Assembly (NCBI GenBank): GCA_017405465.1
Contig: JAFRAJ010000016.1
Location: 110,818-174,817 of the forward strand
Direction: 5' to 3'
Length of the DNA stretch: 64,000 bases
DNA from: Oscillospiraceae bacterium
GTDB taxonomy: Bacteria; Bacillota; Clostridia; Oscillospirales; Ruminococcaceae
Of the stretch, positions 9,191 through 29,108 are shown piece by piece (within the stretch, counting starts at the first letter, position 1; the number at the start of each line of letters is the position of its first letter). The notes below the pieces were generated by a model. The model did not search any database. It had not been told where the DNA came from and worked only from the letters and a program-made list of their open reading frames with translations. The translations under genes were made by a program, and so were the position numbers.

Positions 9191-12100
9191 ATGGCAGACC
9201 AAATGGTTCTTCTTAGCAGCAGTACTGGATCCAGAGTAGTAACCGTACTGTGCCCCGAGTGTGGCAGGATAAGTCGTCAAATACTGAAGGAATCATATAC
9301 TGGTAATAACTTGGCCTCTCTGTCAAGGGCTTTGACATGTCCTGTTTGTGGCAAGAGATATAAGGACTGCAGTTCTGCTGATGCATACAAATGGAGAACG
9401 GCATTATCAAGTTACAATACAGATAATGAAAAGTACAATGATAATGCAAAAAGAGATTATAAGAACAGCATAGACAAGACTGTAAACAACACCGTTTCAT
9501 CATTGCCACAACTTAAGAATGATAAGTGGAAGGGAATGTTTACGTCGGTTATTCTTGAGCGAGGAAGAGAGTACTATCAGGAAAACAAAGTTGAAATCTT
9601 ATCCGACAGTAATGGAGATTCGATCAAAGCACTGGTAAAAGGAACAAAAGATTACACGGTAAGTATCAGTGTGTTTAATGGACTTCCTTATGGTCTGAAG
9701 TGCACATGTCCATATGCCGCAAAAGAACAACATTGTAAACACCAAGCTGCTGTTCTGTTTGCAATCAGCGGTGAACCCCAAACGTCTACAGATAGTTCTG
9801 CCACCATAAGCAAAACCACAAAACAAATCACTGCTAAAGATGATAGTAATGCACCTGTCAAGAGTTCAGGAAATGTAAGCTCAAGCCAAACAGTTCAGAA
9901 GCCATCGCCTACGAAGACACAGACTGTTACTAACGAGAAAAGTATAAACAGTCTGAGCCCTGCGCCAGTTGCCGCCAGCACTGAAAACACAATTAATAAA
10001 TATACTTCTTTTGAAGGCTTGGATAACAAGATAGATCTTTGGAAGCGAGAACTTCTTGATACGGGAAAAAGAAACAAAATGATCAATTACCGCGAGACAA
10101 AGCGGTCGTCATTGCGTATTCTCGAACCGGAAGCAACGGAACTGTTTAACAAGCTTGCTTTTTCCGATAAAGCATTAACGTTCCAGAGACCGATAAGCAA
10201 GGATTCCGATCTGCGTACATATTCTATAATCGCGCTTATGGAGACGCTGTCGTATAACCTGAATGTTCAAAGAGGAGATATAAAAACAGCTGGAACGATT
10301 ATAGAAAGAGAAAAAACTCTTAAGAATCTCCGGCAAAAAGCAAAGCTAGCACAGGAAGAACAGGGAACCAATATTCTGTATCTATGCTTCGGCTTTATTT
10401 ACTGGCGTGAACAGAACAGAGACAGTTCTCCCTGGCTTAAAGCCCCTTTGCTTATGATGCCGGTTACTATCGGCCTTAAATCTCTGAATTCTCCGTTCAC
10501 TCTGAGCAGATATGATGATGAGATTGAAGTTAATCCGACACTGTCGTATTTGTTCCGTACAGAATACAATATCGATCTCCCGGAGTTTGATCTGGAGAAC
10601 AGATCTTCATTCGACGAATATCTTGCACTAATAGAAGAAATTGTTGATAAACGAGGCTGGAAGGTAATGCCTGAAGTCAGTCTCGGCCTTTTGTCGTTCC
10701 TGAAAATCAGCATGTATCACGATCTGGACGTCAATAAGGAGCGTATCGTTTCCAATCCGGTCCTTAGAGCAATGGCCGGAGACAGATCGGCTGAAATAGA
10801 TGTGCCCCGCGAAGCAGAAAACTATGATTTCGATGCAGTAAGACCAGAAGAATGGCATGAAGTAATAGATTCCGACTCCAGCCAGGAAGAAGCTATACTG
10901 CTTTCAAAATTAGGTACGAGTTTTGTAATGCAGGGGCCTCCCGGCACTGGAAAAAGCCAGACTATAACCAACATAATTGCTGAGGCACTGGCGGATGGAA
11001 AGAAAGTGTTGTTTGTTTCCGAGAAGGCGGCTGCTCTTCAGGTGGTTTTAAAGCGGCTTGCTGAAGTTGGGCTGGATGACTTTTGTCTTTCATTGCACAA
11101 CTACAAAGCAAACAAGAAAGAGATCATTGATAGTATAGGTGCAAATTTAAGTCTCAAAGAAGAGTATGTTGACAGTTCTGAATTGAGAGAGTTGACGGAG
11201 TTGTTCCGTGACAGAGAATTTTTAAACAAATATGCCAGTGAGCTCCACGAGCCTATTGCGCCGCTTGATGAGAGCATATACTCAGCATTCGGAAAGATAA
11301 CAAAGTTAAAGCAAGCTACACCATTAGAGTTTCGTATAGAACACCCGGAAGATGTGACTAAGGATCAGTATGCTTCTTTTTTGTACAGTGTCATCGCTTT
11401 TGAAAAGGCACTGAAGGGCATAGGAACAAAGTTGAGTGAAAATCCATGGTTTAATACAAAAGCAACTTCCTCCGGTACAACATTTAAAGATCAGCTGATT
11501 AACCAGACAGATGGATTGTCGGATAAGCTGCGTTCAGTAAAGGAAAAAGCTGCAAAGATCGAACAGAAGCTGAACACCGGAAAGAATGACAGCCTCGCTG
11601 ATGTTGAGACCCTTATCTCAACTGCAGATGTACTCATAAATAAGCCTTCTTCAATTAACAGAAACTGGTTCGACACACAGATATTGTTTTCATGTGAGCA
11701 AAGTGTCCTGGAAGGCAGAATGCATAGTGAACGCTTGAGTGAGTATCAGGATCGAGTATCAGGAAATTGGAATGATTCTATATTTGACTATGACATTGCA
11801 CCAATAAAAGAATACTTTAACGATGAGTATTCCTGGATCTACAGCACAAATGACACAAACACAGAACTGGAACAACAGATTGAAGATAACAGAGACATAG
11901 CGTCTGAATTGTTCGAAGAGATGGAAGTAGTCCTTGAGGCATTCAGGGAAGGATCAGAGCTACTTTCGTATAGATGTACAGAATCGTTTGAATCGCTAGA
12001 GATGGTTTCAAAGGTGCTTGGATTGGCTGCCGAAGCTCCTTATCTGGAACCGTCATGGTTTGACGCACGAAAAAACGAAGAAATCGTCCCGATTATCCGG

Positions 12101-15100
12101 GAGGCACAAATCCATAGCGGCAATATAGCGTCTTATACAGAAGACATCATGAATAATTGGGAAGCATCTGTTTTCTCAATTGATGCAGACAGCATGCTGG
12201 CAAGGTTTAAGACGGAATATGTCGGACTGTTCCACACCATGAAGCCCAGTTATAAAGAGGACATAAAAACGCTTAGACTCCATGCGAAAAGTATAGGCGG
12301 AAAAATAGATGAATCTGAAGCCGTTGACCTTCTTCAGAAGATAAAATCATTGAACGATGAAAAAGCATGGTTTGATTCTCATAACGATGTGTTCGTGGAT
12401 GCAATTGGCGGTCAGTACCATGGTGCGGAGACAGATTGGACACGTATTCTTGACGGCATGCAGAAGGCTCTCGATATTGTTGCGGTTTTCCCTTACGCCA
12501 ATATACCTGAGGAGACGGTGAATGCACTTGTTGGGATAACTAATAGTATCCAGTTGTCCGGCAATGCCCGTCGTATAGCTGAAGTTATCTCTTCAAAAGA
12601 AATAGATGAGCTGAAGGGAAAGATTGCAACAGCCAGGTTCCTGTCAGTTGAGTTAAACGAATGTATTATTCCCAAAGAGGTACTTCCTCAGATCAGTCGG
12701 TTTATCGATAGCTGCAATGCGCAGAGCCATTACTATACTTCACTTGTTGAAAATAAGAGGGAGCCCGTTCTTACAAAAAAGGAAGTTGATGACCTTGTTT
12801 CCGATATTGATGTGATAACTCAGGAAAAGAAGTGGTTCAGTGACAATGGCAGTACATTAAGAGGTCTGTTTGAAGGCTCATATAACGGTTCTGCAACCGA
12901 CTGGATCAGTATAGAAAACGGTCTGAAAGCGGTCAGAAGATTAACTGAACTGTTTGCCGGCAATGTGCCGGAAAATGTTCTTTCATTAGCGTGCAGCAAT
13001 GTAACAGATGTTGTTGATAAAGAAGAATTATTGTCTGATCTAATTCCTTCGTTTAATGAGGCGGAGGAAAAGGTGAATGCTTTTACTTCATACTTTAATG
13101 ATGCCGATTTTATAAATGCAGATCTTATAACGGTTGCAGATAAATATGACAGATGTATTGACGGCTTTGATGAATTAAATAAGTGGTTGGACTATGCGGA
13201 GACACGGGAAGAATGCGATAAACTCGGCTTATCCGGCTTTACTTCAAGTGTAAGTGAATTAGACAATACGGTCCCAGATGTGACGGAAGCTTTTGAAAAG
13301 GCATTCTATATACAGTGGATCAATGTTCAATTGAATAAAGTCAAGTCAGTACAGACTTTCCGAAAGAGAGTTCATGAGCAGAAACTGGAACAGTTTGTCG
13401 ATCTTGATTCCAAACAATATGAGATATCAAGAAAGAGAATCAGGGAAAAGATAATCAGTTCTTTCCCCAGCGTAAATACGGTTGCCCGCGCAGGCTCTCA
13501 GCTTGGAATACTAAGACATCAGATGGAGCTTAAACGAAGAGTTATGCCACTGAGAAGACTGTTCCAAAGCATTCCGGATTTATTATTGACCCTGAAACCG
13601 TGCCTGATGATGTCTCCGTTGTCAGTTGCCTACTTCCTTGATGCTGATGCTTACAAATTTGATATCGTTATCTTCGACGAAGCTTCTCAGATATTCCCGC
13701 AGGATGCGATCGGCGCAATATTCAGAGCTAATCAGGTGATAATCGCAGGCGATACACGACAGCTTCCGCCTACAAACTTCTTCGCCGCAAACACAAACAA
13801 CGGAAGCGAAGGCTATGATGACGATGAAGGATACGATGACGAATCGTATGACTCAATACTTGAGGAAACTGCAAGTATCCTTCCGAGCCGGACTCTGCTT
13901 TGGCATTACAGGAGCAGGCAGGAACACTTAATTGCATTTTCCAACCAGGAGATATACAAAAACGAACTGATTACATTCCCGAGCAGCAATGAAAGCGAGC
14001 CGGACACGGGAGTGGAGTTTGTGTATGTTGAAGATGGATATTATGAGCCATCACCTAAGAACTACAATATTCTTGAGGCTAAGCGAATCGTTGAACTTGT
14101 TAAGGAACACATAGAAAAGCATCCCAATCGTTCTTTGGGCATAATTGCATTCAGTGAAAAACAACAGCAGGCAATATCTCTTGAGATCCAGCGTTTCCGC
14201 GAAAAGAATCCCCGATATGAGACATTCTTTACTGAGGGAAAAGAAGAAGAATTCTTTGTTAAAAACCTGGAAAATGTACAGGGCGACGAGAGAGATACTA
14301 TCTTCTTCAGTATCGGATACGCGAAGACAAAGGAGCAGAAAGCAAACGGCAGGCAGATGTCGCTGCGGTTCGGACCTCTTGGAATTGCGGGAGGAGAACG
14401 TCGACTTAATGTTGCGATAACAAGAGCAAAGACAAACATCAAACTGGTCAGTTCAATACTGCCGTCAGACATTGATATATCAAGAACGGAATCAGAAGGA
14501 ATCCGTATGCTGCGCTCATATATTGAGTTTGCAATGAACGGAGAGTCATCTTTGTCAGTTTCTCACAAGAGTGTCAGAACAGACGATTTCGTCGATTCGA
14601 TAGCTCAGTTTATTCGGGACAACGGATATAGTGTCGAACAATACATTGGCTGTTCTGGATACAAGATAGATATAGCAGTAAAACATCCGTCAGAGGATGT
14701 CGAAGAATTTGTCGCAGCAATAGAGTGCGACGGGTATTCTTATGTCTCTGCCAAAACAGCAAGAGACCGAGATCGCCTGAGAGGTTCTGTGCTTAAGTCG
14801 ATGGGATGGAACCTGTATCGTGTATGGTCTGCAGAATGGTATAAAAACCCTGAAGTAGAAGGAAAAAGACTTTTGCAGTTTATTGCAAACTCGATTAAAG
14901 AATGTGACAGAAAGAGGCAGTTGTCAGAAGAACTGCAAAGAGAAGAAAACCTGAAAAAGCAGGCGTTAGAGGAAGAAAGAGCCCGCAAAGAAGCTGAAAC
15001 TAAAAAGCTTCAGGAAGAGCAGGCGCGAAAAGATGCAGAGTTAAAGAGACAGCAGGAAGAACAGGCTCGTCGAGAAGCTGCAAAGATTCTGGCAAAGAAA

Positions 15101-16003
15101 GATCAAAATAGTCAGAAATCAGAAGAGATCAGGAGATTAAACACAAATAAAAAAGATCAAGACATTAAAAAAGAAGTTCTTGATCTGTCATGGGTCGTTC
15201 CGGGAGCACGTGTAAGGCACAAGTCCTGGGGCAGCGGTGTTGTGCTTAACGTGTTAAGGATAAACGGTATAGTTGACGTGCGATTCAGTAAGTTTGAGAG
15301 ATCGCTTTCGTACCCGTTTGTGTTTGAGACCGGAGTTCTTACAAAAGACGACTCAGTACCAGTGAACGATCATGTTGTTTCTGTAAAAGGTCAGACTGTC
15401 ACAACTAACAGCAATACCGCTACAGCAGGTGTGAAAAACGCTGCAGTGCAGAATAAGAAAGAGGAAGATGCCGCCGGAGAAGATGCAGATGCTTCATGGG
15501 TAAAAGAAGGAGTTCGCGTTTTCAATAAGGTCTACGGTGAAGGTGTGATTGAAGAGGTGAGCGGAACAAAGCTGTTTGTTTTGTTTGGAAAACGAATACG
15601 TGAGTTTACTCTGACATCTGTTAAAAAAGGATTTCTGGAGAAAATAGAAGGTTCTTCACAACCGGAAAAACCTTCTGCACCGCTGCAGCAGAACAGTGCT
15701 CAAGGGCAGGGATTACAGACTTCAGAAGAGAAAACAGGTTTTGTCTATGATTCTGACCATAAAGAGAATACAGCTGTGGTTCGTGAAGCATCGGATCTAA
15801 AAGATTATTTTACGAAAAACGGATTCAGTGTTCGCGACTTAAGAGCACATGGCGGTAACCTTGCAGTCAAAGGAACAGAAAAAGAGATAAGACCTTATCT
15901 GGATGTGGCTGAAGAACTGTTTGGTGACATTGATGGTAAATTCCTTATCAGTTCCGGAACTTTTGCCAGTCAACCTGCGTGGGTCACAAAAAGTCCTAAA
16001 TAG
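9191..16003 (+). CDS. Giant SWIM-zinc-finger, DUF4011, superfamily I helicase and PD-(D/E)XK-like nuclease protein
   Basis: The 2270-residue protein has several modules in order. Two CxxC pairs at about 21-55 form a zinc ribbon. A SWIM zinc finger lies at about 170-190 (CTCPYAAKEQHCKH), followed by a low-complexity Ser/Thr linker. A DUF4011-like block begins near 278. Superfamily I helicase motifs are split: Walker A GPPGTGKS at 582-589, an insertion of about 900 mostly helical residues, then DEAS at 1496-1499, GDTRQLPP and NVAITRAK. A DUF559/MTES-type nuclease-like domain covers about 1795-1895 (YKIDIAV ... AAIECDGYSY). A charged coiled coil follows (about 1915-1970), then two small beta modules with a GSGVV or GEGVI turn, like the tudor domains at helicase C-termini. 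The expected role is ATP-driven DNA unwinding with cleavage. It is the first gene of the kinase/phosphatase operon. Confidence 0.85.
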   Translation: MADQMVLLSSSTGSRVVTVLCPECGRISRQILKESYTGNNLASLSRALTCPVCGKRYKDCSSADAYKWRTALSSYNTDNEKYNDNAKRDYKNSIDKTVNNTVSSLPQLKNDKWKGMFTSVILERGREYYQENKVEILSDSNGDSIKALVKGTKDYTVSISVFNGLPYGLKCTCPYAAKEQHCKHQAAVLFAISGEPQTSTDSSATISKTTKQITAKDDSNAPVKSSGNVSSSQTVQKPSPTKTQTVTNEKSINSLSPAPVAASTENTINKYTSFEGLDNKIDLWKRELLDTGKRNKMINYRETKRSSLRILEPEATELFNKLAFSDKALTFQRPISKDSDLRTYSIIALMETLSYNLNVQRGDIKTAGTIIEREKTLKNLRQKAKLAQEEQGTNILYLCFGFIYWREQNRDSSPWLKAPLLMMPVTIGLKSLNSPFTLSRYDDEIEVNPTLSYLFRTEYNIDLPEFDLENRSSFDEYLALIEEIVDKRGWKVMPEVSLGLLSFLKISMYHDLDVNKERIVSNPVLRAMAGDRSAEIDVPREAENYDFDAVRPEEWHEVIDSDSSQEEAILLSKLGTSFVMQGPPGTGKSQTITNIIAEALADGKKVLFVSEKAAALQVVLKRLAEVGLDDFCLSLHNYKANKKEIIDSIGANLSLKEEYVDSSELRELTELFRDREFLNKYASELHEPIAPLDESIYSAFGKITKLKQATPLEFRIEHPEDVTKDQYASFLYSVIAFEKALKGIGTKLSENPWFNTKATSSGTTFKDQLINQTDGLSDKLRSVKEKAAKIEQKLNTGKNDSLADVETLISTADVLINKPSSINRNWFDTQILFSCEQSVLEGRMHSERLSEYQDRVSGNWNDSIFDYDIAPIKEYFNDEYSWIYSTNDTNTELEQQIEDNRDIASELFEEMEVVLEAFREGSELLSYRCTESFESLEMVSKVLGLAAEAPYLEPSWFDARKNEEIVPIIREAQIHSGNIASYTEDIMNNWEASVFSIDADSMLARFKTEYVGLFHTMKPSYKEDIKTLRLHAKSIGGKIDESEAVDLLQKIKSLNDEKAWFDSHNDVFVDAIGGQYHGAETDWTRILDGMQKALDIVAVFPYANIPEETVNALVGITNSIQLSGNARRIAEVISSKEIDELKGKIATARFLSVELNECIIPKEVLPQISRFIDSCNAQSHYYTSLVENKREPVLTKKEVDDLVSDIDVITQEKKWFSDNGSTLRGLFEGSYNGSATDWISIENGLKAVRRLTELFAGNVPENVLSLACSNVTDVVDKEELLSDLIPSFNEAEEKVNAFTSYFNDADFINADLITVADKYDRCIDGFDELNKWLDYAETREECDKLGLSGFTSSVSELDNTVPDVTEAFEKAFYIQWINVQLNKVKSVQTFRKRVHEQKLEQFVDLDSKQYEISRKRIREKIISSFPSVNTVARAGSQLGILRHQMELKRRVMPLRRLFQSIPDLLLTLKPCLMMSPLSVAYFLDADAYKFDIVIFDEASQIFPQDAIGAIFRANQVIIAGDTRQLPPTNFFAANTNNGSEGYDDDEGYDDESYDSILEETASILPSRTLLWHYRSRQEHLIAFSNQEIYKNELITFPSSNESEPDTGVEFVYVEDGYYEPSPKNYNILEAKRIVELVKEHIEKHPNRSLGIIAFSEKQQQAISLEIQRFREKNPRYETFFTEGKEEEFFVKNLENVQGDERDTIFFSIGYAKTKEQKANGRQMSLRFGPLGIAGGERRLNVAITRAKTNIKLVSSILPSDIDISRTESEGIRMLRSYIEFAMNGESSLSVSHKSVRTDDFVDSIAQFIRDNGYSVEQYIGCSGYKIDIAVKHPSEDVEEFVAAIECDGYSYVSAKTARDRDRLRGSVLKSMGWNLYRVWSAEWYKNPEVEGKRLLQFIANSIKECDRKRQLSEELQREENLKKQALEEERARKEAETKKLQEEQARKDAELKRQQEEQARREAAKILAKKDQNSQKSEEIRRLNTNKKDQDIKKEVLDLSWVVPGARVRHKSWGSGVVLNVLRINGIVDVRFSKFERSLSYPFVFETGVLTKDDSVPVNDHVVSVKGQTVTTNSNTATAGVKNAAVQNKKEEDAAGEDADASWVKEGVRVFNKVYGEGVIEEVSGTKLFVLFGKRIREFTLTSVKKGFLEKIEGSSQPEKPSAPLQQNSAQGQGLQTSEEKTGFVYDSDHKENTAVVREASDLKDYFTKNGFSVRDLRAHGGNLAVKGTEKEIRPYLDVAEELFGDIDGKFLISSGTFASQPAWVTKSPK

Positions 16004-16070: not shown

Positions 16071-17762
16071 ATGGCTGAAAAAACAGTGATAAATACAGCT
16101 GTTAATTCTTCGACACCGACTGTAATCAATAACAATATCGTTGAAGAATACAATCGGCAGAATAACATAGATGTTGAGGAATACAGTTCCATAACAGAAG
16201 GAACCATGATATGCGATAAATATAAGGTGTTAAGTCAGCTTGAAGTATCCTCAGGCGAGGCGGATCTGTACTTGTGTGCAGATGGAACTCAGGAATATGT
16301 CGCAAAAGTCTATAAGCGCAAGTTTGCAATCAAGCAGGAAGTTCTTGACGTTCTATTGACTATTAGCTCGCCTTATGTTGCAAGACTGTATGAGACAGGA
16401 TCATACAATGATTATCCTGTTGAAATCCTTCCGTACTATGAAAACGGAAGTCTTCAGGGCAAAACCTTCAATGAAGATGAGCTGTTCAGAAAGGTTATTC
16501 CCAGCATCAATGAGGGATTGCATGTAATCCATGAAGCAGGAATCATTCACAAAGACCTTAAGCCGTCTAACATAATGATCAATGATGACGGCGAGACTTT
16601 CTCGATCATAGATTTCGGTATCAGTTCGGTTGTGGATGAAGGCAATACCGTTCTTGTGACAAAAACGGGAATGACCCCTGAATACTCCGCGCCGGAAACA
16701 TTCAGGAATCTCTTTCTTAAAGAATCAGATTATTATTCGTTCGGTATTACGTTGTTCGAATTGTTCTGCGGATACACTCCATATGCTAATCTTCAGCCTG
16801 ACGAGATCGAACAGTATATCTCGGTACAGCGAATTCCTTATCCGGATGATATGCCGGCGTTGCTTCAGGATTTTATTTCTGCGTTAACATATCCTGATAT
16901 CAGCAATAGAGCTAATAAGAGCAATCCTAACAGAAGGTGGACCTATGACGAGGTCAAACAATGGCTGGATGGAGAACCTCTCGTTATCCCCGGTGAAGGA
17001 ATCGGAAATGTCGGTAAAGGCACGATGCCTGTGTATGTTTTTCTGGGTGAGGAATACACAGATCCTGCATTGCTGGTCAATGCCCTTGCAAAAAACTGGG
17101 AAGAAGGGAAGAAACAATTATTCAGAGGACAGCTTACGAATCATTTTCGTTCCTGGAATCAGGAAATTGCCAGAAAGTGTCAGGCGGCTGAAGAAGAAGC
17201 AAGCAGGGAAAACGGAAAAGATGACATCATATTCTGGAAATTGTTGTATCAGATCAATCCGAAACTCAAGGGTTTTTACTGGATGGGACAAATATATGAG
17301 AGCCTGGCTGCTTTTGGAAGAGAAGTTCTGGATAAACTGTGGGACAAAGACAGATCGCAGTATTCGTACTACAACAGCATTCTTTCTGAAAAACTGTTGT
17401 CACAATATGTTTCTTTAGCGGCTCCTAAAAACGAGAAGTTGAAGAAGGCTGCAGAGGCTATTGAAGATTCTTATGAATTGGAGAAGAATAACGATACAGA
17501 TCTGCAGCGCACATATTATCTGATGGCTTATACATTGTCCGGCCAGAAACTTTTGCTTCTGGATGGAGAGCAGATCCGTACAGTGGGTGAGTTGGCAAAT
17601 TACATGAAAGCTTTACTGGCAGAGTCATATGACAAATTTGAATCATTATGTCACCGTTTGGTTGATTATGACGGAAACCTTGATTTCCAATTAGAGACAT
17701 GGCTGATGGCAATTGGAAAACAAAATGAAATAGAGAAGTGGCGCTCCTCTATGAACGAGTGA
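16071..17762 (+). CDS. Eukaryotic-like serine/threonine protein kinase
   Basis: The 563-residue cytosolic protein has a complete kinase domain at about 45-300. Visible parts are the VAKVYKR lysine strand, the catalytic loop HKDLKPSN (H160, D162), DFG at 181-183, the activation segment ending SAPE, and FGITLFELFCGYTPY of lobe C. HKD in place of HRD is tolerated in active kinases. The C-terminal 230 residues are helical with no membrane segment, so it is not a PASTA-type receptor. It belongs with the FHA protein and PP2C phosphatase encoded downstream, which would read and erase the mark. Likely substrates are its own operon partners, especially the helicase or AAA+ ATPase. This is inference. 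Confidence 0.93.
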   Translation: MAEKTVINTAVNSSTPTVINNNIVEEYNRQNNIDVEEYSSITEGTMICDKYKVLSQLEVSSGEADLYLCADGTQEYVAKVYKRKFAIKQEVLDVLLTISSPYVARLYETGSYNDYPVEILPYYENGSLQGKTFNEDELFRKVIPSINEGLHVIHEAGIIHKDLKPSNIMINDDGETFSIIDFGISSVVDEGNTVLVTKTGMTPEYSAPETFRNLFLKESDYYSFGITLFELFCGYTPYANLQPDEIEQYISVQRIPYPDDMPALLQDFISALTYPDISNRANKSNPNRRWTYDEVKQWLDGEPLVIPGEGIGNVGKGTMPVYVFLGEEYTDPALLVNALAKNWEEGKKQLFRGQLTNHFRSWNQEIARKCQAAEEEASRENGKDDIIFWKLLYQINPKLKGFYWMGQIYESLAAFGREVLDKLWDKDRSQYSYYNSILSEKLLSQYVSLAAPKNEKLKKAAEAIEDSYELEKNNDTDLQRTYYLMAYTLSGQKLLLLDGEQIRTVGELANYMKALLAESYDKFESLCHRLVDYDGNLDFQLETWLMAIGKQNEIEKWRSSMNE

Positions 17763-20454: not shown

Positions 20455-22332
20455 ATGGAAGACTATATTGCAAAGTGGCACAGAGAACTCGGGATTTTCT
20501 GTAAGATCAAGCCATTGATAATTGTTGAAGGTAATGTCCTTGATGTATATCAATACCCAGTAGAAGGGAGCGCTCCAAAAGGCAGTATCCTTCGGCTTCC
20601 TGAGTATTTGAATTATTACTTTACGGATTTGGGATATAAGACGATCGTGTTTTTCGACAGCATGCAGGGATTCTATAACTCATGTGATGAGAAACATATT
20701 CAGTCCTTTGCTTCGATTACAAATGCAAAGCTTGATGGGTCATATATTCGCAGTGATTTTAAGGGGAAGGCAAATTCAGCAACTTCTTTAATTAAAACTG
20801 CTGTCAGCCAAAACAAAGAGTCCGTAGCGATAGTAATGAATTTGGCCTCAAGATACATAACTTCTCCTGACAGTATCGATCAGTCGGAAGTCGACAGCTA
20901 TACCAATCTTATGCTGGCATCAATGGAAGGCAAAGACGTCAGAACCGAGAATGGAACATTAAAGAATTTGGTCGTTATGGTCGTTAATAAGGTTAACGAT
21001 ATTCCAGCGTGGTTTTATTTGGACAATCCAAATGTCAAGACCGTTACGATCGGCACGCCGTCCAAAGAAGAAAGAGAGCAGTTGGTCAAAGGGGAGAACT
21101 TTTCCAGTTTCTTCTCGTCAGATGTTTTCGAGGAAGACTATCCCTATTTCGAAGCCCATCCCGATGAACTGGAAAAGGTTCAGGACCGTTTTGTAGGCCT
21201 TACAGAGGGGTTCAGCTTTACTGAGATCAATGGGCTCAGAAGACTTTGCAAAAATGAAAAAACACGGATCCGACAGATGTCATCTGTTGTAGATCTGTAC
21301 AGATACGGCATCAAGGAAAACCCGTGGGACAGCCTGGATGTAAATGAACTGAAAACAGCTAAAGAAGATTTTGAGAAGAGAGTTAAGGGACAGGACTTTG
21401 CAATAGTAAAGACGCTGGATGTCGTGAAGAGGGCAGTTACTGGAATGGCGGGCCTCCAGAGTTCTTCTCATGGAAAGCCCAAGGGCATTCTGTTCTTTGC
21501 CGGACCGACTGGAACAGGAAAAACAGAAACAGCCAAAACACTTGCAGAGAAACTGTTCGGAGATGAAAGCTGCTGCATACGTTTTGATATGAGCGAATAC
21601 AGTCAGAGCCACAGCGATCAGAAACTGCTTGGTGCGCCTCCAGGATATGTCGGATATGAAGCGGGAGGACAGCTCACAAATGCTGTGAGAGAAAATCCGT
21701 TCTCAATTCTGTTGTTTGATGAGATAGAAAAAGCCCATCCCTCGATCTTTGACAAGTTTCTGCAGATCCTGGAAGACGGGCGAATGACTGACGGGCAGGG
21801 AAATACTGTTTATTTTTCAGAATGCATCATTATTTTTACGAGCAATCTTGGTATTTACACAAGAAATGAAATGGGAATCAGAAAGGCAAACGTCACTCCC
21901 GATATGCCTTATGCCGAAGTTCAGAAAAAAGTACGTCAGGCAATAGAAGATTATTTCAAACTGGAACTGGGAAGGCCTGAGATCCTGAACCGCATTGGTG
22001 AAAACATCGTAGTTTTTGATTTCATCAGACCTGATGTTGCTGAACTAATCCTTGATTCACAGATTTCCAAGATAGTTAAGAATCTTGCTACTGAGAAGGG
22101 TATTGACCTGGTAGTCACAGATAAAGCCAGAAGCATCCTCGTTTCAAAAGCGTTGGATAATCTTGATAATGGCGGACGAGGAATAGGCAATATCGTCGAA
22201 AGCCTTTTGATCAATCCTCTTTCCCGCTACATGTTTGATCAAGATATTAAGGAAAACGTCAGAATAACTCTGAATGATATTGACGCGGAGAATATGCCGT
22301 ATGCACTTAGCTGTACACACGAGGTTCTGTAA
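20455..22332 (+). CDS. ClpB/ClpA-like AAA+ ATPase with a novel N-terminal domain
   Basis: The 625 residues split into an N-terminal region of about 300 residues without P-loop motifs and one C-terminal class II AAA+ module of the ClpB-D2 kind. Visible motifs are Walker A GPTGTGKT (350-357), Walker B ILLFDEIEKAHP (from about 418), the pore-loop sequence GAPPGYVGY, sensor 1 IIFTSNLG and an arginine-finger region ending RPEILNRIGE. The N-terminal half shares a repeating pattern with ATPases (IIVEGNVLDV, IVFFDSMQGFY) and may be a degenerate or CDC48-like recruitment domain. It should be a hexameric unfoldase or remodeller. AAGGAGG precedes the ATG, and the stop overlaps the phosphatase start by one base. 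Confidence 0.88.
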   Translation: MEDYIAKWHRELGIFCKIKPLIIVEGNVLDVYQYPVEGSAPKGSILRLPEYLNYYFTDLGYKTIVFFDSMQGFYNSCDEKHIQSFASITNAKLDGSYIRSDFKGKANSATSLIKTAVSQNKESVAIVMNLASRYITSPDSIDQSEVDSYTNLMLASMEGKDVRTENGTLKNLVVMVVNKVNDIPAWFYLDNPNVKTVTIGTPSKEEREQLVKGENFSSFFSSDVFEEDYPYFEAHPDELEKVQDRFVGLTEGFSFTEINGLRRLCKNEKTRIRQMSSVVDLYRYGIKENPWDSLDVNELKTAKEDFEKRVKGQDFAIVKTLDVVKRAVTGMAGLQSSSHGKPKGILFFAGPTGTGKTETAKTLAEKLFGDESCCIRFDMSEYSQSHSDQKLLGAPPGYVGYEAGGQLTNAVRENPFSILLFDEIEKAHPSIFDKFLQILEDGRMTDGQGNTVYFSECIIIFTSNLGIYTRNEMGIRKANVTPDMPYAEVQKKVRQAIEDYFKLELGRPEILNRIGENIVVFDFIRPDVAELILDSQISKIVKNLATEKGIDLVVTDKARSILVSKALDNLDNGGRGIGNIVESLLINPLSRYMFDQDIKENVRITLNDIDAENMPYALSCTHEVL

Positions 22333-23063
22333 TGATTTATGCTTCCTCCAGAAAAGGAAAACATCATAATGTCAACGAGGACACAATCGTAATCGGTACA
22401 GAAATACTGTCTGATTCTTCAGGTTCTTTTGAGATACCAGATAATGGGTTTATCTGTATTGCAGATGGAGTAGGCGGCAATGAAGGCGGAGATAAAGCAT
22501 CTCATTTTGTCGCTCAAGAGTTATCAGAGTGGAATGGCAGAAGCAAAGATTCGATTAAAGAATTTTTGACTCAGATAAACAATAATCTGATTGAAGCGTC
22601 TGTTACTGACGTAAATGCCCGTGACAGAGCAACTACACTAACGGGATTTTTTGTGAATGGCAGTGCTTTCAAGGTCATTCATATCGGCAATACCAGAGCC
22701 TTTATTAGGCAAGGGAAATATCTGAAACAAATCACTTCAGATCATACTACATACAATTGGCTGGTCAGAAGCGGACAGACAGAAGCCGCCGAGTCAGCTA
22801 ACAGAAGTGAGATTACAAACTGCTTCGGCGGAATAGATGCGGCGTTGTTGTCTAAACTCTATATTGCAGATTGTCAGGAGTTTTCATTAGCTCTGTTAAC
22901 ATCGGATGGCGTCCATGATTATTTGAGCCTGGATGAACTGGAGGAGATCATCTCAGATGTCAGTTCTTACAGTGATAAATGTGAAACGATAATACAAAAG
23001 GCAATCGACGCAGGATCTGAAGATGATATAAGCGTTGTTATTGTTTGTCCTATGGAAGGATAG
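22332..23063 (+). CDS. PP2C-family serine/threonine phosphatase
   Basis: The 243-residue protein has all main PP2C metal-binding motifs: NED near 15-17, IADGVGG at 43-49, HIGNTRAF, LLTSDGVHDYL, and the terminal SEDDISVV with its aspartates. It should remove phosphate groups added by the kinase encoded six kilobases upstream, which closes the write/read/erase set with the FHA protein. The TAATG overlap with the ATPase gene implies translational coupling and roughly equal amounts. Confidence 0.93.
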   Translation: MIYASSRKGKHHNVNEDTIVIGTEILSDSSGSFEIPDNGFICIADGVGGNEGGDKASHFVAQELSEWNGRSKDSIKEFLTQINNNLIEASVTDVNARDRATTLTGFFVNGSAFKVIHIGNTRAFIRQGKYLKQITSDHTTYNWLVRSGQTEAAESANRSEITNCFGGIDAALLSKLYIADCQEFSLALLTSDGVHDYLSLDELEEIISDVSSYSDKCETIIQKAIDAGSEDDISVVIVCPMEG

Positions 23064-23068
23064 TTTTT

Positions 23069-24136
23069 ATGGGTTGGCGGTATCACAGAAGTATTAATCT
23101 TGGCGGAGGGTTCAGAATCAACCTCAGTAAATCAGGGGTTGGTTATAGTTGGGGTACAAAAGGATACAGAATAACCAGGACCGCGCAGGGGACGACACGC
23201 AGAACGTATACTATTCCTGGAACCGGGTGGTCTTATGTTGATGAAAACAGAGATCCGAGAAGCAGCAGAAATCAGTACGGTCAGAGTAGAACCCGTAATG
23301 TCCAACGCAACAGTTACCAACAACAGTACCTAACACCCGATTATGAGCAGGCAAGCTTTCCTTCAAGAATGCGTAATGATGATGGCTCTCTGCTGATAAA
23401 AACAAAAGAGGATACAGTAGCAGATGCTATTAAAAGAACGATCAGCCTGAACAGAATAGGGATTATTATGCTGTTTTGCCTGTTGCTGGTTGGTTTACAC
23501 CCGATAATGATACTGATACCTGTCACTGGTCTGGTCTTTATACTAATAGCTCACACTATAGGCAGAGTATCACTTGACTATTCCTTTGATCCAGAAAAAG
23601 AAGAAGAGTATATTCGACGCCTTGATGCCTGGGAGATTCTGGCGGAAGGCAAGAAGGAATGGCAGGTGGTATCAGAAACGCATAACAATAATATAAAGAT
23701 CAATGCCGGAGTATACAGAAATGTAGAGCGTGTTGAGGTCCAAATAAATAAAGGACATCCATATTATGTAAAGACTAACGTTGATTCGATTCAGATCGTT
23801 TTAAACAAGAAGGAAAGACTGATAATTCTACCGGACAAAGTGTTTCATATTAATAAAAACAATGTGAACATGATTGAGTACTCTGATTTTAATATTGATG
23901 TTTCTACGATACGTTTCGTCGAGAAAGGACCGATCCCAAGCGATGCACAGGTAATAGGGTATACCTGGCAGTACGTTAACAAAAACGGGACTCCGGACTT
24001 AAGATACAAAGATAACCGGCAAATACCTGAATGTCTGTACGGAAGAGTATTACTGCGAACCTCCTCGGGGCTAAATATTGAGCTGCAAATATCAAACGTT
24101 CAAAATGCACGAGATTTTGCGGAACTGATTCCATAA
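23069..24136 (+). CDS. DUF4236-domain membrane protein
   Basis: The N-terminus (MGWRYHRSINLGGGFRINLS ... KSGVGYSWGTKGYR ... IPGTGWSY) is a clear DUF4236 domain, an all-beta module of unknown function. I chose the ATG at 23069 because GGAAGGA lies at 23054-23060 and this is the conserved domain start. Two hydrophobic segments occur near residues 135-175 (LFCLLLVGLHP, then LVFILIAHTIG), followed by a soluble C-terminal domain of about 180 residues. The 355-residue product is therefore membrane-anchored and could tether the system to the envelope. It sits between the phosphatase and hydrolase genes without a gap. Confidence 0.8.
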   Translation: MGWRYHRSINLGGGFRINLSKSGVGYSWGTKGYRITRTAQGTTRRTYTIPGTGWSYVDENRDPRSSRNQYGQSRTRNVQRNSYQQQYLTPDYEQASFPSRMRNDDGSLLIKTKEDTVADAIKRTISLNRIGIIMLFCLLLVGLHPIMILIPVTGLVFILIAHTIGRVSLDYSFDPEKEEEYIRRLDAWEILAEGKKEWQVVSETHNNNIKINAGVYRNVERVEVQINKGHPYYVKTNVDSIQIVLNKKERLIILPDKVFHINKNNVNMIEYSDFNIDVSTIRFVEKGPIPSDAQVIGYTWQYVNKNGTPDLRYKDNRQIPECLYGRVLLRTSSGLNIELQISNVQNARDFAELIP

Positions 24137-24139
24137 GCG

Positions 24140-25096
24140 ATGCGAAAGAGAACGTACTATATACTTGTTCTTCTGGCAGCAGTGTTAGTATTGTCTGCTG
24201 TGATCGTTGTATGCAAACCGTTTCTTAAGAGTGTTTATGAAAAGAAAACAGAACAGGTTTCACCGGAAGATCAGTACACTCGTCAAATCGATCAGCAAGC
24301 AAACATTAAAGAAGAAGCGAATCAGGCTTCATTTGAGATTCATTTCTTTAATGTCGGAGAAGCAGACTCTGCTTTGGTAATGTGTGACGGCCACTATATG
24401 CTGATCGACGGGGGTAATCCCGGGAATTCATCGTTTTTGTATTCATATCTTGAATCGCATGGAATTAATTATATTGATTACATTGTGTGTTCACATGCGC
24501 ATACCGATCATGTCGGAGGATTAGCAGGTGCACTGAACTATGCAAAAGTTGGCTTCGCTTATTCTCCTGTAGCTTCATATGACAGTCGTGCGTTTAACAG
24601 CTTCATAAAGTATCTTTCCCAACAGGGGAAAAACATAAAGGTCCCGTTTTCCGGAGAAACGATTGAACTTGGCAGTGCTGTTATAACGTTTATTGGCCCA
24701 ATCGATATGTCTCTTGCAGAGACAGATGAGAACAATTCATCAATAGTACTTAGGATCGAATATGGATCCACATCATTTCTGTTTACAGGGGATGCAGAAA
24801 CAGAGGAAGAATCATCTCTTGTTAAATCGGATTTCATGCTTAAAAGCACAGTGCTTAAAGTCGGACATCATGGCAGCAATTCGTCATCTTCTCAAAGATT
24901 CATTGATGTAGTTGACCCCCAATTTGCTGTAATATCGGTGGGTGTAAATGATTACGATCACCCCAATGATGATGTCATTAAAAGATTAGAAAAATACTGT
25001 GACAGAATATATAGGACAGATTTGAATGGCAATATCGTATGTACGAGTGATGGAGAGGCTCTAGCATTCTATGTTGAAATGGACACGAATCTCTAA
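24140..25096 (+). CDS. Membrane-anchored metallo-beta-lactamase-fold hydrolase (ComEC C-terminal type)
   Basis: The 318-residue protein has one N-terminal membrane segment (about 6-28), a polar linker, and an MBL domain that begins IHFFNVGEADSALV. The metal-binding motif is HAHTDH (H119, H121, D123, H124), with later ligands in LFTGDAE and VGHHGS. The opening sequence and the GHHGS block match the beta-lactamase-like domain of ComEC/Rec2, which is thought to degrade one strand during DNA uptake. The anchor would place it outside the cytoplasmic membrane. A nuclease or phosphodiesterase role beside an FtsK-like motor is plausible but inferred. Confidence 0.87.
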   Translation: MRKRTYYILVLLAAVLVLSAVIVVCKPFLKSVYEKKTEQVSPEDQYTRQIDQQANIKEEANQASFEIHFFNVGEADSALVMCDGHYMLIDGGNPGNSSFLYSYLESHGINYIDYIVCSHAHTDHVGGLAGALNYAKVGFAYSPVASYDSRAFNSFIKYLSQQGKNIKVPFSGETIELGSAVITFIGPIDMSLAETDENNSSIVLRIEYGSTSFLFTGDAETEEESSLVKSDFMLKSTVLKVGHHGSNSSSSQRFIDVVDPQFAVISVGVNDYDHPNDDVIKRLEKYCDRIYRTDLNGNIVCTSDGEALAFYVEMDTNL

Positions 25097-25189: not shown

Positions 25190-26854
25190 ATGGAAACTTT
25201 TGTTGCCATTAGTTTTTTCATTGGCCTGGTTGCGCTTTTAGTATCAATAATCATGTTTATTGTGAAGAAGATAAAAAAAGAAAACACAGAGCGTATAGCT
25301 AAAACTATAAACTTTGTGGTTTTCGTAATAGCGCTTGACATTATCATCATGCTATTTCCTATGGGAAAAACTACGGCTCTAGTATATACGGGAATTTTGT
25401 TGCTGATATCAATACACTATGTGATCTCACTCGATGTTCTCAGATTAAATATCATATCAAGGAAAGACAGCTCGATAGGGGAGAACGTTCCGGTCACACT
25501 GAATCAGACGACTAACAATCAGCAAATACAAGAAATAACTGCAAAAACTGTTTCAGCTGATGAAGAAGTAACAATACTGCCAGAAAGTGCAGATGCAGAA
25601 TACATAGAAAATATTGAAGAAGATAACGATCAAAAGCAAATATCAGACAATGAATTGAATGAGTTCAGGCTAATAAGCGATGTCGAGGTACAGAACACTC
25701 AGGAGGGTGTCCGCATTAATTTCGGAAGAGAAGAAAACTCGGTTTCAGAAGAGTTTCCTTCGGTTGCAAGAGAGTGCAAGAGTTCATTTGAGGTACCAAT
25801 ATTTAGATTCGGAGCATCGTACTTTAAACAGGATATTTCAAAAAACAATTCATTGATAGGAGGAACTTCAGGAAGCGGAAAATCCTCACTTGCAAAAGCA
25901 TTGCTTATGTGGCTTTGTTTGCGTAATTCGCCGGAGAACCTCAGAGTGGTAATAATCGATACGCGATCTGTCGACTATATTTCATTCAGATCTTTACCTC
26001 ACCTGCTGGTTCCTGTTGTGAAAGAGATAAATAGGGCACCGGGCTTGATCAGATGGCTTAATACAGAGGTGATTAACAGAAATCGTTCAATGCAATCAGG
26101 AATCAATGTTGCATCTCAGAAGATCCTGCTTGTCATTGACGATATGGCAGGGTTGGGAGACCCTTCAGACTGGAAAGAATCATTACGCAATATTTTGGCT
26201 GAAGGACAGAGGGTTGGAGTTTTTGTTATGATGGTAACATCAAATCCGTCCTCTGATGTTCTTTCTACGGATCTTAAGATAAACATTCCGTTAAGAATGT
26301 CTTTTTATGTACCGTCAACCATGGGATCCCGAATGATTCTTGAAGCAAGTGGAGCGGAAAAGATCAGTGAACGAGGTAATGTGCTTGTTAATGCCAGCGG
26401 TTCTATAAAAGAGGGAAAAGCTCTATATATTGCAGAAGAAGACTTGGAGACACTATCAAGACAACTAAATGATATTTATGGAGAGCACTATTATGAGTGC
26501 CTTTCATACAGCACATCATTGCTTCAAGATAATTGGCCTATTCATTGCATACATAATCCAGACGAAGAAATAGTCAAAAAGATTAATTATAATAGCGGCG
26601 CAGTTAGCCCAGATGATACAGATGAAAACGGATTTGACGATATGTTTGAAGCTGCGGTGGAAGCTGTCCTTGATGCAGGTCAAGCGAACACTTCTATGAT
26701 TATGAGAAAGCTGCGGCTCGGATATGCTAGATGCGCTAGAATAATGGATGAAATGGAACAGGCGGGGATAATAGCACCTCAAGAAGGCAGCAAGCCCAGA
26801 CAGGTCTTAATAACAAAACAGCAATGGCGTGAAAGGACTACAGTCAGAAGGTGA
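25190..26854 (+). CDS. FtsK/SpoIIIE-like DNA-translocase ATPase
   Basis: The 554 residues begin with two or three membrane segments (about 3-27, 41-57 and 61-80), then an acidic linker, an FtsK-type motor with Walker A GTSGSGKS (225-232) and Walker B ILLVIDDMAGL (near 310), and a C-terminal winged helix. That winged helix (MIMRKLRLGYARCARIMDEM) closely follows the gamma domain of FtsK, which reads KOPS-like DNA sites. The protein is shorter than chromosomal FtsK and has a reduced membrane part. It may pump DNA at the envelope or direct the helicase. GGAAAGGATG precedes the start. Confidence 0.88.
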   Translation: METFVAISFFIGLVALLVSIIMFIVKKIKKENTERIAKTINFVVFVIALDIIIMLFPMGKTTALVYTGILLLISIHYVISLDVLRLNIISRKDSSIGENVPVTLNQTTNNQQIQEITAKTVSADEEVTILPESADAEYIENIEEDNDQKQISDNELNEFRLISDVEVQNTQEGVRINFGREENSVSEEFPSVARECKSSFEVPIFRFGASYFKQDISKNNSLIGGTSGSGKSSLAKALLMWLCLRNSPENLRVVIIDTRSVDYISFRSLPHLLVPVVKEINRAPGLIRWLNTEVINRNRSMQSGINVASQKILLVIDDMAGLGDPSDWKESLRNILAEGQRVGVFVMMVTSNPSSDVLSTDLKINIPLRMSFYVPSTMGSRMILEASGAEKISERGNVLVNASGSIKEGKALYIAEEDLETLSRQLNDIYGEHYYECLSYSTSLLQDNWPIHCIHNPDEEIVKKINYNSGAVSPDDTDENGFDDMFEAAVEAVLDAGQANTSMIMRKLRLGYARCARIMDEMEQAGIIAPQEGSKPRQVLITKQQWRERTTVRR

Positions 26855-26987: not shown

Positions 26988-28286
26988 ATGACAACAGCGG
27001 CAGGTTTAGCAGAATATCTGAGAAAAACACATACGGAGTCTGTCAAGCAAGATTCGCAATCCTTACAGATCAATGACAGGGTAACTGTTCTGTTTAATCC
27101 GTCCAGGATAACCAACTCACTAATGCTGGCGTTCAATGAATTATACACTCTTCAGATGCGGAGTGAAGCAGAATCTGTTGACGGCGACATGAAGGATATT
27201 CTTAACAGCATCTTTGAAGAAGACATTTGTTCGCCTGTTTTAGGCAGTTTTATGCCTTCATGGATGTCGGACACAAATGTCCCGCTTTGGGCAAATTTGA
27301 TGCTTGGTATCATGGGATATATAGCAGAACGTGTTCCTGCGCAGGACCTGGATCTGATCAAGAATAATCTGCTGATTGCCGATTGTGTTTCAAAATACAA
27401 CGGTGATCTGCAGTTAAAGAAATACTTCAGCAGAAAATCAGATTTGCGATCCGTTAATTCCTCTTTACAAAGACAGTGTATTATTCCTGAAAACTCCTCT
27501 ACTAAAACAAGAACAAGAATAAAAAAGCAAAGAAACAATAACTCTGCAGAGAAACGATCTGTTATTAGCAGGCTGTACTGGTTCGTGGTATTGGTTTTAT
27601 CGGTAATCACTTCCTGCACAATATGGAACGTCACACATTCTGTTGACGTTGTACTCATAATAGCTTTTGCCTTCTCAATACCCGCGCTTATTTCATGTAT
27701 AGCAGCTGTTCTTTATAAGTTTTCGAATAAACCGGCAAGGAAAGCCTGGCGCATTTTTGTTGTATCCATAATAGCCTTTGTAGTTTTCCTCGTAGTTGGC
27801 GGGATTAACGAGTGCGAGCATAATTGGGTTTTTGAAGAAACAATTGCACCAACATGCGAAGCTTATGGATATGACCTGTATAAATGCGATCTGTGTGGAG
27901 CTTCAGAAAAGCGCAATAAGGAATCTGCTTTGGGCCATTCTTTTGAGGGAACAAAAAACGAAGACGGTGAAGTGTACAGTGTTTGCAGCAGATGCGGCAA
28001 GAAAGTCGTGAGTAAAAAAAGCAAAAAGAGTGAGACGGAAGATTCAGAACCGGTGTTTACATCGGAAGGGAAGGCAGGATTCACATTGCTTCTGATAATA
28101 ATTGCTATACCTATAATCAAGTCGGTAAGAAAAGACAAACGGTATCAGCAAATTCTTGATGATATCCAAAGAAGAGGAGGCAGGGTCGTCTATCAAAACC
28201 GTCAAACCGGAACAATAAGTGCACAGTATCCGGGCGGAGTACGGCAGACTTATTCTGCATACAGAGGATACAATTCAAAAGTTTGA
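26988..28286 (+). CDS. Membrane protein with internal zinc ribbons
   Basis: I do not recognise the 432-residue protein as a whole. A soluble helical N-terminus (about 1-180) is followed by three hydrophobic segments between about 192 and 275. A Cys-rich stretch follows with two CxxC pairs (CDLCG and CSRCG) around GHSFEG, similar to small repeats common in clostridial surface proteins. One more membrane segment lies at about 362-375. The tail is GGRVVYQNRQTG plus aromatic residues. It lies 133 bases after the FtsK-like gene and probably belongs to the same transcript. An envelope component of the system is the best guess. Confidence 0.65.
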   Translation: MTTAAGLAEYLRKTHTESVKQDSQSLQINDRVTVLFNPSRITNSLMLAFNELYTLQMRSEAESVDGDMKDILNSIFEEDICSPVLGSFMPSWMSDTNVPLWANLMLGIMGYIAERVPAQDLDLIKNNLLIADCVSKYNGDLQLKKYFSRKSDLRSVNSSLQRQCIIPENSSTKTRTRIKKQRNNNSAEKRSVISRLYWFVVLVLSVITSCTIWNVTHSVDVVLIIAFAFSIPALISCIAAVLYKFSNKPARKAWRIFVVSIIAFVVFLVVGGINECEHNWVFEETIAPTCEAYGYDLYKCDLCGASEKRNKESALGHSFEGTKNEDGEVYSVCSRCGKKVVSKKSKKSETEDSEPVFTSEGKAGFTLLLIIIAIPIIKSVRKDKRYQQILDDIQRRGGRVVYQNRQTGTISAQYPGGVRQTYSAYRGYNSKV

Positions 28287-28307
28287 CAACCAGATATAGG
28301 TAATAAA

Positions 28308-29108
28308 ATGAACAAACAAAATACTTTTGAATCCGATTTTGTCGCATTGAGATGTCCGAGTTGCGGCGCACCTCTTACATATAACGAAGCGGACGGAACA
28401 TACAACTGCTCGTTTTGCGGAATTTCCTTCATCATGAAGAAAAAAGGCAATGCTGCAGATTCCTTGAGCATGGCCAGAAAAGAATATGAGAAAGAAAGAT
28501 ACGACGATGCCAGGAGATACTACGCCAAAGCCCTGGAAGAGGATCCTGACAGTTGGGAAGCAGATCTCGGAGTGGCTACTTGTGACATGCTCAAGTCCAA
28601 GTGGAACGATTACCGCGCAGACCAGTTCAAATCAAATATCAAAGAAATAAGAAAACAGATTGATAAACTTCCAGAGAGTGAGATATATGAGGCAAAGTAT
28701 ACGCTTGGCGGTATGATCGCAGATGTGGCTTTGTATGTAAACAATGAACTGGAAGATTCTGTTTATGACAGATGGATGAGAAACATTGAGAACGGCCGTC
28801 GTTATCCGGAACCGGATGTGTCGAGCCATGAACTGATGGAAGATGTCAAGGACTGGATCTTGGAAGAAACACAGTTGATGTTCGAGTCGGAGCCCGGAGA
28901 CGGTCCTATCCCGGAGGACAAGGTCAAACTCATAGAGATGCTGTTCAATTATGTGTATGCCAAAGACACTTATACGATAGTGTTGGAAGGATACGGAACT
29001 CATCCGATAGATGATTATTTCAGGAATAAAAAAGACATGTACATGAAGATGCTCGAGAAGCGCAATCCGGGATATAAGTTCTACCAGAACGTCACCCTCA
29101 GGTATTGA
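28308..29108 (+). CDS. Zinc-ribbon and TPR-like cytosolic protein
   Basis: The 266-residue protein begins with a zinc ribbon (CPSCGAPLTYNEADG ... CSFCG, about 13-36). It continues with a TPR-like helical repeat (ARKEYEKERYDDARRYYAKA ... LEEDPDSWEADLGVATC). The rest is acidic and helical with no catalytic motif. It is the last gene of the run and starts 21 bases after its neighbour. An adaptor that binds a partner through the TPR is likely. Confidence 0.7.
   Translation: MNKQNTFESDFVALRCPSCGAPLTYNEADGTYNCSFCGISFIMKKKGNAADSLSMARKEYEKERYDDARRYYAKALEEDPDSWEADLGVATCDMLKSKWNDYRADQFKSNIKEIRKQIDKLPESEIYEAKYTLGGMIADVALYVNNELEDSVYDRWMRNIENGRRYPEPDVSSHELMEDVKDWILEETQLMFESEPGDGPIPEDKVKLIEMLFNYVYAKDTYTIVLEGYGTHPIDDYFRNKKDMYMKMLEKRNPGYKFYQNVTLRY

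Follow-up and report, generated by a model that had tools for sequence, protein, structure and literature searches.

A conserved gene cassette with a predicted phosphorylation switch, a Clp-like AAA+ protein and a radical SAM partner, and its possible role in antiviral defence

A same-strand gene run and its conserved part

We analysed a 64,000-nucleotide stretch of DNA, hereafter the window (contig C38, positions 110818-174817), from the genome of an Oscillospiraceae bacterium whose assembly comprises 2.05 Mb in 62 contigs and is 80% complete. The subject of this work is a run of twelve open reading frames (ORFs) at 9191-29108, which a first-pass annotation had read as a single phosphorylation-controlled DNA-processing system with its own promoter. 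The + strand does carry all twelve ORFs, and Pfam searches agree with the domain calls made for them, with key catalytic motifs intact: across the run we detected DUF4011 with an SF1 helicase and MTES_1575, a Ser/Thr kinase, FHA with zinc ribbons, radical SAM, ClpB-type AAA+, PP2C, DUF4236, a ComEC-like metallo-beta-lactamase (MBL) fold and FtsK. From 9191 to 25096 the genes are separated by gaps of at most 67 bp and several overlap, after which gaps of 93 bp and 133 bp lie around the FtsK gene. By comparison with other genomes, the conserved unit is smaller than the run and consists of the genes for a helicase (HEL), a kinase (KIN), a coiled-coil protein (COIL), an FHA protein, a radical SAM protein (rSAM), a double-AAA+ protein (CLP) and a PP2C phosphatase, followed by the DUF4236 gene. 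Its features are as follows.

9053..9092, + strand: terminator-like hairpin (16 pairs, T-rich tail), a consensus match only
9191..16003, + strand: HEL, a giant protein with N-terminal CxxC pairs, DUF4011, SF1 helicase (AAA_11/AAA_12) and MTES_1575 Vsr-like nuclease (Pfam, motifs)
16071..17762, + strand: KIN, a Ser/Thr protein kinase whose N-terminal tail is rich in Thr and whose C-terminal region has no assigned function (Pfam, motifs)
16083..16130, + strand: Thr motifs in the KIN tail, TVIN, TAVN and TVIN (residues 5, 9 and 17), predicted FHA docking sites
17778..19232, + strand: COIL, a coiled-coil protein with MSGPK at its N-terminus and a conserved alpha/beta domain at its C-terminus, the third core protein of the cassette
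19236..19862, + strand: FHA protein, zinc ribbons and a forkhead-associated phospho-Thr reader domain (Pfam, motifs)
19859..20434, + strand: rSAM, a small NrdG-like radical SAM protein (Fer4_12/NrdG-like), CX3CX2C intact
20455..22332, + strand: CLP, double-AAA+, first domain without Walker A, second of ClpB D2 type with Walker A/B (Pfam AAA_2, ClpB_D2-small)
22332..23063, + strand: PP2C phosphatase, Stp1-like, catalytic motifs ADGVGG/SDG intact
23045..24136, + strand: DUF4236 protein, likely true start near 23069 (MGWRYHRS)

The hairpin at 9053-9092 divides the operon from upstream type I restriction-modification (RM), WYL and MrcB_N/NOV_C genes. The proposed promoter was not recovered: a consensus scan of 9000-28999 returned 48 promoter-like sites against 43.7 expected. 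The + strand from 9000 up to the start codon at 9191 has none of them, and the hairpin was found there instead.

Key motifs are intact in HEL (GPPGTGKS, DEASQ), KIN (HKDLKPSN, DFG), the FHA protein (IGR, SRQH) and the second AAA+ domain of CLP (Walker A GPTGTGKT, Walker B LLFDEIEK), and the N-terminal CxxC pairs of HEL are probably zinc-binding. CLP begins at its first AAA+ domain and lacks a Clp N-domain, the model aligning from residue 3. The radical SAM protein carries CTRKCKGC and GGEP and scores 110.6 bits to TIGR02491, below the NrdG cut-off of 126.1. NrdG-like enzymes make glycyl radicals. A classical glycyl-radical role for rSAM is nevertheless doubtful, because no partner motif occurs in the operon and aerobes such as Rhizobium keep the gene.

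Distribution and co-occurrence of the cassette genes

CLP served as the search anchor. Among 197 genomes of the family, 23 had a match at 1e-60, but only 8 of these (the window's own genome included) reached the first 200 residues, while the other 15 aligned from residue 236 on, which is mainly the common AAA+ core. Wider searches used a profile of roughly the first 300 residues of CLP, plus one full-length row, and returned matches in 4 of 394 genomes of the order and 13 of 398 of the phylum. Among named genomes, the best 80 of 587 matching stretches comprised 8 that cover nearly the whole of CLP and 72 that cover only residues from 248 on. Plasmids also carry the gene (21 of 72,556 records, the match covering 80% or more of the query in 19), and 12 of the 21 are predicted to be conjugative; 8 of the 21 records were taken into the locus analysis. 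Named members fall in Bacillota, Pseudomonadota, Actinomycetota (Streptomyces) and Cyanobacteriota (Geminocystis), thus at least four phyla. A CLP (P0047) 84% identical to that of the window over the first 300 residues is labelled Segatella copri (a metagenome-assembled genome), which would mean either transfer to Bacteroidota or a binning error.

In total, 37 loci (7, plus 8 from the named-genome scan, 8 from plasmid records and 14) were annotated with iterated profiles. On the same strand as CLP we found rSAM in 33, COIL in 25, KIN in 21, FHA in 20, a helicase in 14, PP2C in 13 and a PIN protein in 8. The loci without a same-strand rSAM are L021-L023, where CLP stands alone, and L028, where rSAM lies on the opposite strand. 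In contrast, 72 control loci holding only the ClpB-type core yielded KIN once and rSAM, COIL, FHA, PP2C and helicase not at all. The difference is large, and is to be read with the facts that the profiles were built from member loci and that control loci were shorter (at least 15 kb in 33/72 versus 31/37). The DUF4236 gene lies directly 3' of PP2C in L014, L116 and L118 and has relatives in 4 of the 37 loci (tblastn). The CLP ORF of Streptomyces aidingensis (L028 8624-12019) is 1131 aa long, with a long N-terminal extension, and is near kinase and FHA ORFs.

Three layouts

The cassette occurs in three arrangements. The kinase type, in the order HEL-KIN-COIL-FHA-rSAM-CLP-PP2C, is shared by the window, genomes G069 (L014) and G555 (L116) and an Aristaeella plasmid (L101), and in other genomes it is found without the helicase. 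The fusion type, CLP-rSAM-KIN::HEL, occurs in Rhizobium, Bradyrhizobium and Burkholderia. The Rhizobium fusion protein (L102) is 2086 aa long and contains Pkinase at 183-355, DUF4011 at 747-831, AAA_11, AAA_12 and MTES_1575 at 1980-2075; what the window operon encodes in its first two genes is therefore a single polypeptide there. The PIN type, helicase-PIN-COIL-CLP-rSAM, was found in Moellerella, Photobacterium, Polaromonas, Acinetobacter, Leisingera and three genomes of the window's phylum. In a maximum-likelihood tree of CLP with 35 rows, the PIN type and the fusion type each lie on one side of a fully supported branch, and the kinase type needs 4 changes. The lone CLPs of L021-L023 form a separate clade.

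PIN-type cassettes often have extra genes beside them, as judged from annotation and by eye, for radical SAM proteins and nucleotide-kinase-like proteins of the kind seen in small-molecule or nucleoside biosynthesis (L018 919-6164, which includes a carbamoyltransferase-like protein; L019 5250-8497; L104 1437-3505; L107 14145-16127; L122 12720-15729).

Location at type III CRISPR loci

In genus g411, which belongs to the window's phylum, 4 of the 12 genomes examined carry the cassette in the order KIN-COIL-CLP-rSAM-FHA-PP2C. At L125, csm1-csm2-csm3-csm4-csm5 and one 207-aa gene precede the cassette on the same strand, and all five csm genes score above curated cut-offs, csm1 being cut by the end of the fetched stretch. 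The same csm genes are present at L126, and csm1 with part of the 207-aa gene at L128. All four loci have repeats of one family, which form arrays spaced by about 65 bp in L125 and, flanking the cassette on either side, in L129. The distance between Csm1 and CLP is 7-18 kb in each of the four cassette-bearing genomes; across the genus, Csm1 is above cut-off in 11 of 12 genomes. The 207-aa gene itself (L125 14682-15305), located between csm5 and the kinase gene, is kept in L126 and partly in L128; it had no NCBIfam match and possibly encodes a Cas6-like protein.

A second case comes from Methylocaldum (L027), where homologues of cmr1, cmr2, cmr4 and cmr6, above cut-off, come directly after KIN, FHA, a COIL-like gene, CLP and rSAM. 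At least two separate CRISPR associations are likely, since L027 groups in the CLP tree with Streptomyces rather than with g411 (96/92).

Threonine repeats in the kinase tail

Repeats N-terminal to the kinase domain are TxIN-like in L014, L116, L118 and L101 and take other forms elsewhere (RKATEVDEGWR repeated in L017, QQTRREN repeated in L120, T-x-x-M in L016). For each tail we counted the commonest residue 3 places after Thr and compared the count with shuffled versions of the same tail, using 18 kinases from FHA-bearing loci, with two near-copies dropped, and 3 fused kinases without FHA for comparison. The 18 tails gave a combined p of 1.7e-10, with 8 individually below 0.05, and the fused kinases gave p 0.68. 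FHA domains read phospho-Thr with a preference at the residue three further on, and the tail is therefore predicted to be a docking platform for the FHA protein. The Aristaeella plasmid also encodes a second cassette-type kinase (L101 22168-25038) of 956 aa with a TxxN tail of its own, adjoining a DUF6273 protein.

Comparison with known systems

HEL resembles three families of anti-phage proteins in PADLOC and NCBIfam that join DUF4011, an SF1 helicase and a Vsr-like nuclease, scoring 1296 bits to PDC-S37 (a PADLOC candidate), 1214 to ProA and 849.5 (about 850) to Hhe. The PDC-S37 match, against a PADLOC model that has no curated cut-off, is strong (E 0, in three stretches); the ProA and Hhe scores fall short of NCBIfam cut-offs of 1500 and 2000. 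These models describe single proteins, whereas the HEL of the window is one gene of a kinase/AAA+/rSAM operon.

Mokosh consists of MkoA, a kinase-helicase, and MkoB, a PLD nuclease. The window shares with it a kinase linked to a COG1112-type SF1 helicase, adjacent here and fused in L102; MkoA models match both HEL and KIN, and the PIN-type helicase scores 340 bits to MkoA. However, the Pfam tables of the operon contain no PLD domain, the nuclease being MTES_1575, and CLP, rSAM and COIL are not among the Mokosh parts.

The first-pass annotation had named TerY-P-type systems as a known parallel, in whose triads a kinase and PP2C are attached to nucleic-acid processing genes, according to the CoCoNuTs paper (PMC11090510). 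The window likewise has Ser/Thr kinase and PP2C-type phosphatase genes together, but Pfam searches revealed no vWA domain, the third member of the triad, in any of the 12 operon proteins or in 8 neighbouring ones. An FHA protein stands in its place, and the AAA+/rSAM core is foreign to the triad; the operon is not a TerY-P system.

KKP (kinase-kinase-phosphatase) is a defence locus combining Ser/Thr kinase, FHA and PP2C, in which one of two kinases is fused to FHA and the other to a cold-shock domain; in the main text of its description the terms 'AAA' and 'radical SAM' do not appear, and helicase is mentioned in connection with a phage helicase loader (PMC11341870). In the window there is one kinase, FHA is on a separate protein and the Pfam tables list no cold-shock domain. 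Similarity to the methylation-associated defence system, MADS, is seen in KIN (mad6, 122 bits), in the FtsK-like ATPase (mad8, 46 bits) and in matches of the neighbouring type I methylase and specificity genes, but KIN reaches only 79 bits against the NCBIfam MAD6 cut-off of 460, and the RM genes of the window lie beyond the terminator-like hairpin and are not conserved partners of the cassette. CLP is like ClpA, ClpB and ClpC in its predicted double-AAA+ fold and the ClpB-like motifs of its second domain, and unlike them in lacking the first-domain Walker A and the Clp N-domain and in having a radical SAM partner. Other conflict systems combining vWA, AAA+, radical SAM or FHA parts have been reported (PMC7159879).

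No NCBIfam or PADLOC model was found that names the first domain of CLP, the rSAM set or the COIL of the window, and in the 8 plasmid records analysed the core genes have no labels beyond 'AAA family ATPase', '4Fe-4S single cluster domain-containing protein' and 'hypothetical protein'. The one exception among models is the COIL of g411 (L125 10813-12357), with a PADLOC Csx1/Csm6 match of 62 bits over nearly its whole length, which is either an artefact or a sign that such proteins have already been collected near CRISPR loci. We found no description of the cassette in the searchable literature, coverage of which takes in few subscription papers, where earlier notice is conceivable. None of the systems compared here has an equivalent of its core, while the kinase/phosphatase theme and the helicase are of known kinds.

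Proposed function and alternative explanations

On balance we regard genes 9191-24136 as a conserved kinase-type cassette, likely antiviral since the set recurs across phyla and two lineages have it within or next to a type III CRISPR locus. In this cassette a kinase-FHA-PP2C switch is predicted to act over a Clp-like AAA+ protein, its radical SAM partner and a helicase/nuclease. In this respect the idea of a phosphorylation-controlled, nucleic-acid-linked and probably defensive system put forward by the first-pass annotation gained support from synteny, the Rhizobium kinase-helicase-nuclease fusion and the CRISPR loci, whereas its twelve-gene extent does not hold and its promoter was not found.

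What the sequences themselves show is the gene content, the co-occurrence, the fusion, intact motifs, the missing Walker A, the Thr repeats and the CRISPR location; from these we predict the following order of events. The DUF4011/SF1 helicase would engage foreign nucleic acid, a sensor role that may elsewhere fall to a Mokosh-like helicase with a PIN protein or to a type III CRISPR complex. The engaged helicase would activate the kinase, a link suggested by the fusion in Rhizobium and Burkholderia of what in the window are adjacent genes, and the kinase would phosphorylate its own tail at the successive Thr motifs. The FHA protein could then dock on these phospho-Thr sites and gather COIL, CLP and rSAM, a connection between the kinase and this core that we propose because of the FHA domain and the Thr tails. 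CLP, a hexamer-type motor with a dead and probably regulatory first AAA+ domain, may thread or remodel a partner, such that the nuclease or the rSAM product is released, and PP2C would reset the switch. The nucleic-acid part appears exchangeable because of the CRISPR and PIN variants, and the simplest interpretation is a cassette for signalling and execution that is placed behind different nucleic-acid sensors.

A bolder version, which we put forward tentatively as possible rather than probable, is a portable immune signalling cassette that is plugged into interchangeable sensors and in which the kinase tail, with its repeated phospho-Thr sites, serves as a multivalent scaffold that nucleates the assembly of FHA, COIL, AAA+ and radical SAM proteins (sensors: DUF4011 helicase-nucleases, Mokosh-like helicases with PIN RNases, type III CRISPR complexes). 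If this were true, CRISPR immunity would have a protein-phosphorylation arm alongside cyclic-oligonucleotide signalling, and central parts in immunity would fall to a radical SAM enzyme and to a Clp-type motor whose first ring is dead. If the main reading is right, one cassette in at least four phyla would add phosphorylation control both to helicase defences that stand alone and to type III CRISPR. An AAA+ motor with a dead first ring and an NrdG-like radical SAM enzyme also present in Rhizobium and Burkholderia would then have an immune role. The pairing of kinase tail and FHA, the threaded substrate of the motor and the target of the radical enzyme are now testable.

Several observations weigh against the antiviral, phosphorylation-controlled interpretation. 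No same-strand FHA match was found in 17 of the 37 loci and no kinase match in 16, and given these loci and the PIN type, phosphorylation is not a universal core. CLP occurs without any partner in the three Clostridia loci L021-L023, at 57-60% identity (at most 10 kb per side), and the cassettes of G077 and G167 are flanked by genes that look, by eye, like housekeeping genes. The KIN tail of the window is not individually significant (p 0.087), and p exceeds 0.7 for 5 of the 18 tails from FHA loci. Of 35 rSAM matches, 8 showed no GGE motif and 2 have it at an odd place, and the glycyl-radical pattern R[VILAM][SACTG]G[YFW] is absent from all 12 operon proteins, the rest of the genome not having been searched for a partner. 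As for CRISPR, the four g411 loci belong to one genus and may represent one insertion event; there is no cas gene in the 20 kb fetched at L129, only short repeat remnants in L126 (3 copies) and L128 (4 irregular copies) and no repeat array in the 19.2 kb of L027. The genome of the window, 80% complete, gave no Csm1 match, and a type III CRISPR location was not found for the window locus.

Some of these points would also suit a stress-response or DNA-repair module, in which helicase/nuclease and AAA+ protein repair or reset damaged nucleoprotein complexes, kinase and phosphatase tune them, and defence islands and CRISPR loci are only where the module travels. The cassettes of L015 and L016 between apparent housekeeping genes, the solitary CLP genes and a LexA-like repressor 3' of the window operon (29403) are in keeping with it, but the patchy spread (8/197 family, 4/394 order and 13/398 phylum genomes), the plasmids, the CRISPR loci and a helicase of a defence family make it rather unlikely. 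Quite unlikely, too, is a scheme in which the radical SAM enzyme is the effector, making, like prokaryotic viperins, a small molecule that is toxic or terminates chains, with the AAA+ machine only activating the enzyme. The family is NrdG-like overall rather than viperin-like and the GGE motif is inconstant, which tells against this scheme despite rSAM being the most constant partner, with CX3CX2C in 35/35 matches examined; the Moellerella rSAM does match pVip models weakly (24 bits), a score that any radical SAM protein might reach.

The single strand and short gaps are what one would expect if all twelve genes, including MBL, the FtsK motor, p432 (a 26988-28286 gene product) and the TPR protein, formed one DNA-processing machine. 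We judge this very unlikely: the gaps widen after MBL, the last three genes are not conserved beside the cassette in its 37 relatives, bar one weak FtsK-domain match, and the matches listed for 197 family genomes include no second full-length FtsK; the twelve-gene system was thus over-called. Finally, kinase, FHA, PP2C and a ClpV-like ATPase form the control set of some type VI systems, and the resemblance raises the highly improbable alternative of a phospho-regulated secretion or contractile apparatus, akin to the type VI PpkA-Fha-PppA-ClpV arm or an EssC-linked type VII device, with CLP as recycling ATPase. Although the FHA protein weakly matches TagH (33.5 bits against a cut-off of 120) and L017 encodes a 1112-aa FtsK-related protein that we read as EssC-like, CLP scores 223 of the 885 bits required for ClpV (TssH), the helicase, PIN and CRISPR partners do not fit, and no operon protein reached the Pfam cut-off of a secretion structural part, no targeted search for sheath or baseplate having been made.

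Neighbouring genes and minor observations

Downstream of the conserved unit, the run continues with four genes.

24140..25096, + strand: ComEC-like metallo-beta-lactamase-fold hydrolase, N-terminal hydrophobic segment, motif HAHTDH intact, accessory
25190..26854, + strand: FtsK-like DNA translocase with FtsK_gamma, adjacent to the conserved unit and not shown to be part of it
26988..28286, + strand: p432, function unassigned, hydrophobic segments, not conserved with the cassette
28308..29108, + strand: zinc-ribbon/TPR protein, not conserved with the cassette

By tblastn against the 37 loci, MBL has one relative, in the Aristaeella plasmid locus (45% identity), and p432 and the TPR protein have none. 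The FtsK gene, which the first-pass annotation had singled out for a synteny check together with the genes at 16071, 19859 and 20455, has one weak match, in L017 (22% over 276 residues), while the other three (KIN, rSAM and CLP) do co-occur across loci. The FtsK query matched in 173 of the 197 family genomes, and the matches listed involve only the motor part (residue 185 on) of other proteins, mostly of 750-1,100 aa. The type I restriction neighbourhood that had been pointed out is real in that RM genes lie upstream, but it is not a conserved feature, with restriction-type genes or fragments in only L103 and, by annotation, L104 among the 37 loci.

Elsewhere in the window, a protein with MrcB_N and NOV_C (7762-8970) is encoded between the type I RM genes and the operon and matches PADLOC PDC-S36 with 126 bits. 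Downstream of an integrase lie genes for a UvrD-type helicase with a GajB/RTasHel-like score (36600-39140) and a RecD-like helicase (39168-41339), possibly a further defence locus.

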